From Armatimonadota bacterium (GTDB lineage: Bacteria; Armatimonadota; Fimbriimonadia; Fimbriimonadales; Fimbriimonadaceae): DNA of 45,205 nucleotides. The position numbers and the translations under genes are program-made. How positions within the stretch are numbered: the stretch's first letter is position 1; every line of letters starts with the position of its first letter. The stretch is from NCBI GenBank assembly GCA_018268335.1, contig JAFDWT010000012.1, forward strand, positions 1 to 45,205, in the 5' to 3' direction. The notes beneath the pieces are model-generated. The model worked only from the letters and a program-made list of their open reading frames with translations. It was not told the DNA's origin and made no database searches. Positions 8,380 through 44,472 of this stretch are shown here, piece by piece.

Positions 8380-8455
8380 TGGAGGCGCCGAGCGGATTCG
8401 AACCGCTGGATAAAGGTTTTGCAGACCTTCCCCTTAACCACTTGGGCACGGCGCC
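8380..8455 (-). tRNA. tRNA-Cys (anticodon GCA), CCA encoded
   Basis: The reverse complement folds as a tRNA. The acceptor stem GGCGCCG (8455-8449) pairs perfectly with CGGCGCC, the discriminator is U73, and a CCA end is encoded at 8382-8380. The anticodon arm is AAGGT-CTGCAAA-ACCTT, giving GCA. The T arm is GCGGTTCGAATCCGC with an intact TTCGAAT loop. U73 and the GCA anticodon are both identity elements for cysteinyl-tRNA synthetase. It lies about 64 bases upstream of scpA in the same orientation. Confidence 0.96.
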
Positions 8456-32675: not shown

Positions 32676-33461
32676 TTAGCCGACTTTGGCCACCAACGTG
32701 CCCAACCCCTCGACCATGAACGTGACCCGGTCTGAAGGCAGCAGCAGCCGACCAAGTGCCGACGTGTCCAGAGACGGTTTCGGCAGGGCTGGCCAGACCA
32801 AGACTTCGCCAGCCGCTACGGCGCCGACCAGAGTCGACTGCGCGACCAAGGTCGAAAAGCCCGGCCATGCCTCAACGATGCCTCCCGCAACGACTTCCTC
32901 GCCGACGCGAACCTGGAAGGGCCAGGCATAGACGTCTGTCTCTCCCGCGACCAGATAGTCAGAAATCTCCTCGGGCGTGACAATGAACGGGCCCATCACC
33001 ATGCCAGCGTCGCGGCCGGGCGCGCCAGAGCCACCGCGCATTTGGTCGTCTTCGACGACCGCTGGGACGTTGAAGGCGATAACCAGCGTATAGCCGAGCA
33101 GAAACCCGGCAGCCTCTTGCTCCTCGACAGACATCCCCGACGCCGAGACGACTGCCGCCACGTGGACGTCGAAATCGAGACCGTCGACGTCGGGAGCCAT
33201 TTCGATCTCAGAAATTGGCCCCTTGACCAATCCAGGGTGCCGGTAGCCGTAGGTCAGGTATCGCTCACCGGCCCCGTCGGCCACAGTCTCAAAGACGCGG
33301 ACTGCGGTTGCTTGACCCAAGGGCGACAAGAGGTGGAACGCACTCGGCTCGTGGATGCCGACCGCCTTGTCGCCGTCCGTCTCGTACACCCTGTTGTCAT
33401 GGAAAATGCCGGACCGCGCCAGTCCTGGCTGTTCAATGAGTTCAAAGCGGACGAGTTTCAT
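32676..33461 (-). CDS. Fumarylacetoacetate hydrolase-family protein
   Basis: The protein (261 aa) has an FAH-like start (MKLVRFELIEQPGLARSGIF) and an FAH catalytic barrel: EEQEAAGFLLGYTLVIAFNV, GRDAGMVMGPFIVTPEEISD and a late VEAWPGFSTLVAQS. The metal-binding EVEL of the family appears as FDVHV and the NDVSARD aspartate appears as FNVPAVV, so the usual Asp/Glu metal ligands are changed to Asp, His and Asn. Activity as a standard C-C hydrolase is therefore uncertain. The frame extends upstream to 33608 into the repeat region; ATG 33461 is preferred. It is divergent from the response regulator, with phenylalanine hydroxylase, another aromatic-catabolism enzyme, only 5.8 kb away. Confidence 0.82.
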   Translation of the reverse strand: MKLVRFELIEQPGLARSGIFHDNRVYETDGDKAVGIHEPSAFHLLSPLGQATAVRVFETVADGAGERYLTYGYRHPGLVKGPISEIEMAPDVDGLDFDVHVAAVVSASGMSVEEQEAAGFLLGYTLVIAFNVPAVVEDDQMRGGSGAPGRDAGMVMGPFIVTPEEISDYLVAGETDVYAWPFQVRVGEEVVAGGIVEAWPGFSTLVAQSTLVGAVAAGEVLVWPALPKPSLDTSALGRLLLPSDRVTFMVEGLGTLVAKVG

Positions 33462-33487: not shown

Positions 33488-33598
33488 CTTCAGGCTTCAG
33501 TCTTCGGTCCTCAGCGGATCGGGTCTGGGGTCTCGGGTTCGGGGTACGGGGTACGGGGTGCTGAGGACTGAGGCCCAGACCCCAGACCCCAGACCCCC
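33488..33598. repeat. Heptamer-phased composite repeat with complementary interleaved blocks
   Basis: From 33488 the sequence keeps a 7-base register: CTTCAGG, CTTCAGT, CTTCGGT, CCTCAGC, GGATCGG, GTCTGGG, GTCTCGG, GTTCGGG, GTACGGG, GTACGGG, GTGCTGA, GGACTGA, then after one extra base CCCCAGA, CCCCAGA, CCCC. Block A (33506-33515) is complementary to A' (33560-33569), with one G-T wobble. Block B (33521-33533) is a perfect 13-base complement of B' (33577-33589), with a second register one heptamer later. The order A-B-A'-B' is a pseudoknot topology. It fills much of the 228-base gap between the divergent FAH and response-regulator genes; the rest of that gap holds no gene. Confidence 0.85.
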
Positions 33599-33689: not shown

Positions 33690-34100
33690 ATGCCTCCGCT
33701 AAAGATTTTGGTCTGTGATGATGAAAGGCACATTGTGCGCCTGATCCAGGTGAACCTGGAGAAGCAGGGGTACCAGGTTGTGACCGCCTACGACGGCAAG
33801 GAAGGCCTTGAGAAAGTGCAGTCCGAGAAACCCGACCTCATGGTGCTCGACGTCATGATGCCGTACATGGACGGGTTCGAGGTTCTCAAGGCGCTCCGTC
33901 GCGACGCCGCCACCGAGACCCTGCCGGTCATCATGTTGACGGCCAAGGCGCAGGACAAGGACGTGTTCGAGGGCTACCACTATGGCGCCGACATGTACTT
34001 GACCAAGCCGTTCAACCCCATGGAACTGGTTGCCTTTGTCAAGCGCATCACCCAGGGCGGCGACGACAGCGGCGGCGGACCCAAGAAATACGACCTTTAA
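33690..34100 (+). CDS. Single-domain response regulator (CheY-like)
   Basis: The 136-residue protein is a receiver domain with nothing attached. Landmarks are the acidic pair in KILVCDDERHIVRLIQVNLE, the phosphoacceptor aspartate in PDLMVLDVMMPYMDGFEVLK, the conserved Thr in PVIMLTAKAQDKD and the Lys in DMYLTKPFNPMELVAFVKRI. The C-terminus ends GGDDSGGGPKKYDL. ATG 33690 is used; an in-frame ATG at 33666 would add eight residues. No histidine kinase lies beside it. A link to the flagellar switch or to c-di-GMP signalling is possible but not shown. A strong terminator follows. Confidence 0.93.
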   Translation: MPPLKILVCDDERHIVRLIQVNLEKQGYQVVTAYDGKEGLEKVQSEKPDLMVLDVMMPYMDGFEVLKALRRDAATETLPVIMLTAKAQDKDVFEGYHYGADMYLTKPFNPMELVAFVKRITQGGDDSGGGPKKYDL

Positions 34101-43345: not shown

Positions 43346-44418
43346 GAGTCCTCCACATCGCCTCGTCGATGCCCGACGACTGGGGCGGCATCGAACGCTA
43401 TGTGGCCACCCTCTCCGCCGCGCAAGTGGCGATGGGAGTCGATGTCGAGGTGGCGGCATGGCCTGGCTCGCCGTTATCTCAGCGGCTGAGCGTCCCTCAA
43501 GTGGCCGCCCGCGTACCGCGCAAGTTCCGTTGGGCTGGCCTTCCCGACTATCTGCGCCTGTTTTCCTCGCGCCGCTACGACGTCGTCGTGCCGCACTTTT
43601 CGCCGGACTACGACGTTCCTCTGATCGCGGCGCGAATGTGTGGGCAGTGTGGGGTTGTCGTCACCCGCCACTTGGCCGTGCCTCTGCGCCCGGCCCGAGC
43701 ACGCTCGCTGGCCCGGCTCGCCGACGGGTTCATTGGCGTCAGCCAGGCCGCGGCGGATTCGCTAGTCGCATCGGGCATAGACGCGTCCCGAGTGCTGGCC
43801 GTCCACGGCGGCTGCGTTCCGCTAGTCTCTCGCCGAGATCGCAGCGAGGTGCGCAGGGAATACGGCATGGATGGATTTACCGTCGGCTTCTTTGGCCGGT
43901 TGGTCGAAGAGAAGGGGATAATGACTGCGGCCGAGGCCTTCCGTTCTCTCCCGGGGGTGCACCTGCACGTCTTTGGCGACGGGCCCCTATTGGGCGAGCT
44001 GCAGTCCATGCCTCACATCCAAGTCCACGGCAAGATCGACCAAGTGGCCGACGCCATGGCCGCGGTCGACGCCGTCATCCTCCCCAGCCTCTGGGCCGAG
44101 GCGTTCAGCGTGGCTCTGCTGGAAGCGATGTCGCTGGGCAAGCCAATTGTCGCGTCGGCAGTCGGCGGCGTCCCGGAAGCGGTGAGCGATCGGGTCGAGG
44201 CCCTGCTCGTCCCCCCAGGGCAACCGGTGGCCATGGCGGCAGCAGTCCGGTCGCTGGCCGACAACGCCGAACTGTCCGCAAGTCTGGGAGCCGCGGCCCG
44301 CGAAAAGTTCTACGCCTCGTACACCCCAGCCCATATGGCCCGGCGGCTCACAAGCGCCTACGCCGATTTGTCTCCGAAAGCCCCCTCTTTCTTCCGAGGG
44401 AGAGGGGGTTGGGGGTGA
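43342..44418 (+). CDS. Group-1 (GT4-type) glycosyltransferase
   Basis: The 358-residue protein has the GT-B fold: an N-terminal glycine-rich start (RVLHIASSMPDDWGGIERYV), then GFFGRLVEEKGIMTAAEAFR, and the nucleotide-sugar motif FGDGPLLGELQ with ILPSLWAEAFSVALLEAMSL, the E-x7-E motif, and GKPIVASAVGGVPE. The sugar and acceptor are unknown; such enzymes often build cell-surface polysaccharides. The final residues (PKAPSFFRGRGGWG) are encoded inside a C/G-rich hairpin and look unlike the rest of the protein, so the original stop has probably been displaced by that repeat. The start overlaps the esterase stop. Confidence 0.92.
   Translation: MRVLHIASSMPDDWGGIERYVATLSAAQVAMGVDVEVAAWPGSPLSQRLSVPQVAARVPRKFRWAGLPDYLRLFSSRRYDVVVPHFSPDYDVPLIAARMCGQCGVVVTRHLAVPLRPARARSLARLADGFIGVSQAAADSLVASGIDASRVLAVHGGCVPLVSRRDRSEVRREYGMDGFTVGFFGRLVEEKGIMTAAEAFRSLPGVHLHVFGDGPLLGELQSMPHIQVHGKIDQVADAMAAVDAVILPSLWAEAFSVALLEAMSLGKPIVASAVGGVPEAVSDRVEALLVPPGQPVAMAAAVRSLADNAELSASLGAAAREKFYASYTPAHMARRLTSAYADLSPKAPSFFRGRGGWG
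44381..44408. repeat. C/G-rich hairpin in the 3' end of the glycosyltransferase gene
   Basis: CCCCCTCT (44381-44388) pairs with AGAGGGGG (44401-44408) around a 12-base loop, followed by TTGGGGGTGAGGG. The hairpin encodes the last residues and precedes the stop codon at 44416-44418. Confidence 0.6.
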
Positions 44419-44444
44419 GGGTTTCCGGATTTCCCCGCCCCTAA

Positions 44445-44472
44445 CCCCTCCCCAACCGGAGTTGAGGAGGGG
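44445..44472. terminator. Bidirectional hairpin between glycosyltransferase and mfd
   Basis: CCCCTCCCCAAC (44445-44456) pairs with GTTGAGGAGGGG (44461-44472) at 11 of 12 positions around a CGGA loop. It lies between convergent stops, 4 bases before the mfd stop. Together with 44381-44408 it forms a composite C/G-rich repeat of a kind often dispersed in high-GC genomes. Confidence 0.65.

Follow-up and report, generated by a model that had tools for sequence, protein, structure and literature searches.

The window, by which we mean the whole 45,205-nucleotide stretch of DNA that was analysed, contains a short heptamer array in the gap between two protein genes. The first-pass annotation had placed this array in the promoter gap of an FAH-family gene and a response regulator, and both assignments were confirmed by domain matches. 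The features of the locus are:

32676..33461, minus strand: FAH-family gene (PF01557), neighbour outside the element; likely start codon at 33461, conserved in a relative.
33488..33598, no strand: the entire gene-less heptamer array, missing at the same site of the same-genus genome G001.
33488..33514, minus strand: block A, four GARGACY-family heptamers (plus strand CTTCAGG CTTCAGT CTTCGGT CCTCAG), read from the sequence; pattern A- matches at 33496-33512, and the family also occurs elsewhere in the genome.
33514..33561, plus strand: block B, GGGGTNN family (GCGGAT CGGGTCT GGGGTCT CGGGTTC GGGGTAC GGGGTAC GGGGTGC); pattern B+ matches at 33521-33559, and AGCGGATCGGGT is common to an arm at C26.
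33560..33573, plus strand: block A', GCTGAGGACTGAGG, inverted partner of the end of block A.
33574..33598, minus strand: block B', CCCAGAC repeated 3.4 times, inverted partner of block B.
33690..34100, plus strand: response regulator (PF00072), neighbour outside the element; start at 33690.

Elsewhere in the window, positions 8380-8455 hold a tRNA-Cys gene (anticodon GCA, minus strand), and positions 44385-44450 a weak inverted G-rich/C-rich stretch that looks decayed (GGGTTGGGGGTGAGGG ... CCCCTAACCCCTCCCC) and may be an old relic of an array like this one.

Across 33488-33598 the identity at a lag of seven bases is 0.70, against a mean of 0.28 and a maximum of 0.47 in 2000 dinucleotide shuffles, and the runner-up among 111-bp stretches of the window reaches 0.40. 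The array had been described as keeping a strict 7-base register; the register is real, but the word "strict" is slightly overstated, since at GCGGAT (about 33514-33519) the phase is shifted by one base. Two later blocks had also been read as reverse complements of two earlier ones. For B and B' (33521-33533 with 33577-33589) this holds as a perfect 13-bp inverted repeat, which none of 1000 shuffles reached and which can be extended to 23 nt at 87% (33521-33543 with 33574-33596); because B' is itself a repeat, the two blocks are able to pair in several registers. Blocks A and A' (33506-33515 with 33560-33569) are inverted partners as well, but over nine of the ten positions rather than all ten, with G33506 opposite T33569. 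The block order A-B-A'-B' is present in the sequence as described.

The two heptamer families, GGGGTNN and GARGACY, were found at about 26 places on 22 contigs of the host genome, counts that are to be read as minima. Seven of these places have convergent B..B' inverted pairs and three have A..A' pairs. The GARGACY pattern gave 16 matches in this genome against none for the reversed control, while the looser GGGT pattern gave 37 against 21, a weaker contrast because the reversed control contains the same G-runs. A search of the host genome, as proposed in the first-pass annotation, revealed a dispersed repeat family, although A-B-A'-B' occurs solely in the window and the other places show the orders B-A-B', B-B'-A', B-A' and A-A'. 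In G001, the sole same-genus genome compared, both neighbouring genes and their synteny are kept while the array is absent (about 131 bp versus 55 bp). A second array of the host genome, C115, is likewise missing there, with flanks 84-86% identical, and searches of G001 returned no match to the GGGT pattern and no PF05635 gene. At the window site G001 is about 77% identical and the spacer is partly unalignable, so that a target duplication is unreadable and the array could instead have been lost in G001. In another genome, G013, the reversed control pattern had 140 matches, above the pattern itself, which indicates another G-rich heptamer family there.

One place in the host genome differs from the others in carrying a gene. 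At C26:639-692 an array lies directly upstream of an open reading frame of 121 amino acids and its inverted partner lies directly downstream, so that mirrored GGGGTNN arrays stand on either side of the only PF05635 gene found in this genome. The encoded protein belongs to the 23S rRNA intervening sequence proteins (IVP, S23), which form a four-helix bundle (PF05635, E = 1.6e-31; also TIGR02436, "four helix bundle protein"). Its nearest solved structure is 2gsc, Xcc0516 of Xanthomonas campestris (E = 3e-20), and it has a weak similarity to the Avd profile NF033474 (E = 0.03). The full element of about 430 bp consists of a heptamer arm, one PF05635/TIGR02436 gene and a mirrored arm; the arms are tandem, slightly varied heptamers, and each arm matches its own partner. 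Besides this one full copy, the host genome has the same heptamers at about 25 places that carry no gene. The element at C26 is absent from G001, as judged from BLAST anchors and the lack of PF05635 in that genome.

The association of PF05635 with heptamer arms extends well beyond this genome. Among 71 PF05635 loci in the phylum, a period-7 array lies within 260 bp upstream in 44, downstream in 43 and on both sides in 40, against 2 of 66 and 1 of 68 control stretches 700 bp away (about 2%). Other periods were met at 0 to 7 of the 71 loci, except that lag 14, being twice 7, also scores high, and about 30-40% of the loci have no clear array. In 43 of 70 pairs one flank was an inverted copy of the other, and in one pair a direct copy, where mismatched loci give an expectation of 0.25. 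Outside the phylum, in about ten others, period-7 arrays stood on both sides at 22 of 29 loci, in a non-random sample of genomes picked for a GGGG-type array. The same was found for all seven plasmid loci, which are all cyanobacterial and were found by the protein alone, free of the array-selection bias. When proteins of different genomes are at least 55% identical, the cosine of their arm words averages 0.25 versus about 0.03, and this sharing of arm words by similar proteins indicates that the arms travel with the gene. Genomes with at least five GGGTNYN array matches contained PF05635 in 20 of 21 cases against 77 of 180 (Fisher p = 2e-6, without control for genome size).

Signs of mobility come from the comparison of cyanobacterial plasmids, where, between flanks 90-98% identical, the unit is present in some records and absent in others. 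On plasmid C of Trichormus variabilis the unit is flanked by two copies of GTAAT, a 5-bp duplication, and the empty sites in Nostoc linckia, Tolypothrix and N. carneum have a single GTAAT between flanks about 98% identical; in Nostoc sp. C052 the unit at this site is truncated. On pNsp_a of Nostoc ATCC 53789 the unit is flanked by two copies of TTCTA, again a 5-bp duplication. At three of the five full-element sites, and at two further compared sites, the unit is likewise present in some records and absent in others, but no clean duplication can be seen. Gene-less units behave in the same way: pC052_A of C052 has one that pNsp_b and pNsp_c are without, pNsp_a has a second gene-less unit nested in a gene-less unit of the pC052_A type with ATTTAA duplicated, and plasmid 1 of Aulosira has another gene-less insertion. 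Target duplications of 5-6 bp are thus seen at three insertions, two of full units and one of a gene-less unit. Nesting of gene-less units in this way could make mosaics like the window array. At about 1119-1135 of L379, where L382 has a gene-less unit and L381 a single TGAC, lies TGACTGAC, which could be an excision footprint. One query of a phage collection for carriage of the element gave no match.

The window array has inverted arms that are built of period-7 repeats and interleaved with a second heptamer family, and it shares its arm sequence (GGGGTNN, AGCGGATCGGGT) with the full PF05635-bearing copy of the same genome. Less in keeping with a copy of that element, no remnant of IVP is left in it, and its A and B blocks form a mosaic that differs from the standard mirrored pair; as 111 bp leave no room for a PF05635 gene, the array is classed solely as a gene-less derivative. 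We consider it probable that a small, widespread and apparently undescribed mobile element gave rise to the window array as a MITE-like mosaic copy without the gene. The array itself would have arrived by insertion of a gene-less unit, its block order could have arisen from one unit inserting into or beside another, and the number of heptamer units may have been altered by slippage. Within the gap between the two genes the array is probably without a function of its own, while effects on the expression of these neighbours are possible.

The full unit encodes no known transposase. IVP protein pairs mostly share only 25-55% identity, and still the polar residues Q38, R41, S45, N49, E52, R56, S72 and E75 (C26 numbering) are near-invariant, which makes the protein the leading candidate for reading the arms and perhaps for catalysis, although we know of no catalytic function of IVP. 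It may bind the arms, with the repeat period reflecting its mode of reading DNA, and, alone or together with a host enzyme, it might move the unit and, in trans, the gene-less copies. A wider proposal can be made only tentatively, namely that a new class of minimal transposable elements is moved by the PF05635/S23 proteins, each of which would read phased repeats in mirrored arms with a period specific to it (usually 7, in fewer cases 8-11), insert the unit with a 5-6 bp duplication and mobilise gene-less copies, and that much of the heptamer excess in bacteria is debris of such elements.

Alternatively, polymerase slippage could have given rise to the heptamers on the spot as simple repeats, and template switching during replication to their inverted partners, with IVP genes merely nearby. 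Slippage has already been proposed for bacterial heptamers (PMC4692102), the number and sequence of the units do vary, and the order of variant units is mirrored beyond what unit shuffling gives in only 18 of 49 arms (p <= 0.05). Against this stand whole gene-plus-arms units that some sites have and others lack, together with short target duplications, gene-less units that are inserted and nested, arms that follow the IVP protein across genomes and phyla, and control flanks that are without arrays, and we regard this origin as unlikely.

Very unlikely, in our assessment, is the proposal that the array is a selected regulatory structure of RNA or DNA, be it a pseudoknot, alternative hairpins or a quadruplex, in the promoter gap of the FAH-family gene and the response regulator. 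The array does have G-runs and strong inverted repeats, the G-rich blocks could plausibly form quadruplexes, and predicted folds are somewhat more stable than those of shuffled sequences. Yet this excess is modest (z = -2.1), and the minimum-energy RNA fold pairs other segments than the proposed blocks. Among the arm mismatches of 71 related elements, 134 would leave G·U and 135 would leave A·C, and this equality means that no selection on an RNA stem is visible; copying at the DNA level followed by drift would fit the pattern better than selection for RNA pairing. The relative G001 keeps both genes without the array, and the search of the array found no Rfam family (sub-threshold microRNA matches only) and no promoter or terminator signal. 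The pseudoknot that the first-pass annotation had considered possible is not supported as a selected structure: its block order is found once in the genome, the fold ignores it and the G·U test is negative.

A further proposal, that a REP/REPIN-like sequence is moved by a host Y1 transposase (RAYT, IS200/IS605-type), appears still less probable. The host genome has four Y1 genes and the array-free G001 has none, and the counts of Y1 and IVP genes correlate (rho 0.59), but genome size correlates nearly as strongly (rho 0.52), and G013 and G027 bear the element without having any Y1 gene. Y1 transposition is known to leave no target duplication, unlike the 5-6 bp duplications seen here. On account of the correlation, little above that of genome size, and of the exceptions G013 and G027, Y1 is disfavoured as the mover. 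RNA-mediated copying by a reverse transcriptase partnered with the IVP protein, as Avd is partnered with the reverse transcriptase of diversity-generating retroelements, would find a motive in the weak similarity to Avd, but is hardly credible and was rejected as the motor, since RVT_1 was not found in the host genome or in the element-rich G078, G099, G106, G005 and G128 and there is no sign of RNA-stem selection.

The mobile element favoured here has likenesses to several known systems. The intervening sequences of 23S rRNA genes with an S23p ORF, known from Coxiella, Leptospira and others, are considered selfish and possibly once mobile (PMC4990558). They too have a PF05635-type ORF between inverted repeats and are of similar length, 428 nt in Coxiella (PMC4990558), but they sit in rRNA helices and are cut from the RNA by RNase III. 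The elements described here lie between protein genes, as the window array does, which is not in a 23S rRNA helix; their arms are heptamer-phased, they show no sign of RNA-stem selection and they have duplications of 5-6 bp. G-rich heptameric repeats, GGGNATC and GGGGA(C/T)T, have been reported from Xanthomonas and Nostoc (Rehm et al., 2015, PMC4692102); these are dispersed, mostly intergenic and heptamer-phased with a G-rich strand, and in Xanthomonas many form convergent inverted pairs. The window array resembles them in heptamer phase, G-tract, intergenic position and dispersal, with the unit GGGGTNN instead of GGGNATC. However, they were described as simple repeats with quadruplex potential and raised locus stability, and no gene, mobility or duplication was reported (PMC4692102). 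MITEs and REPINs are likewise short, gene-less, dispersed inverted-repeat sequences mobile in trans, but MITEs have the ends of a known transposon and REPINs need a RAYT (Y1) transposase (e.g., PMC3116915), whereas here a four-helix-bundle protein is the product of the companion gene and phased repeats make up the arms. Avd of diversity-generating retroelements is also a four-helix-bundle protein, with weak sequence similarity, but here the unit, and in several cases the genome, has no reverse transcriptase.

The STRR heptamers of Calothrix and Nostoc are tandem repeats dispersed in cyanobacterial genomes, and small dispersed repeats inside heptamer tracts of Nostoc have reportedly been described by Elhai. 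Both tandem dispersed heptamers and nested insertions recall the elements described here; to our knowledge, these repeats have not been linked to a PF05635 gene. The papers that we found on intervening sequences and on G-rich heptamers do not join the two, the G-rich heptamers with convergent pairs from Xanthomonas and Nostoc are known without an explanation, and among open-access papers none was found that joins heptamer arrays with PF05635.

The copy in the window would by itself be ordinary, but the element behind it is not. Two old puzzles are the over-representation of heptamers among long simple repeats in many bacteria and the role of the common S23/four-helix-bundle proteins. Should a real link exist between them, a single widespread mobile element would be relevant to both, and DNA may be moved by a protein that lacks any recognised catalytic fold; a heptamer-armed element may then help to account for the commonness of seven-base repeats in bacterial genomes. 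In the same case, many "four helix bundle" genes found within operons, those of CRISPR-cas included, would be insertions and not operon members.

Across distant members of PF05635 (L110 709-1017) the near-invariant series Q, R, S, N, E, R, S, E resembles a binding or catalytic centre. Arms of other periods were seen at single PF05635 loci, with period 8 at L251, L255, L262, L280 and L325, period 9 at L252, L257 and L304, period 10 at L275, L277, L278 and L294, and period 11 at L310. Period 10 is common to three related proteins (L275, L277 and L278), while the resolved forks of the protein tree are too few for a firm test of period against phylogeny. A full-length four helix bundle unit lies between cas10 and cmr3 in Picosynechococcus PCC 7003 (L377 1483-1839) and is absent in PCC 7002 (L380), and another lies between cas6 and cas4 in Anabaena sp. 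90 (L378 1483-1851); these units in CRISPR-cas operons are probably insertions rather than accessory Cas genes.
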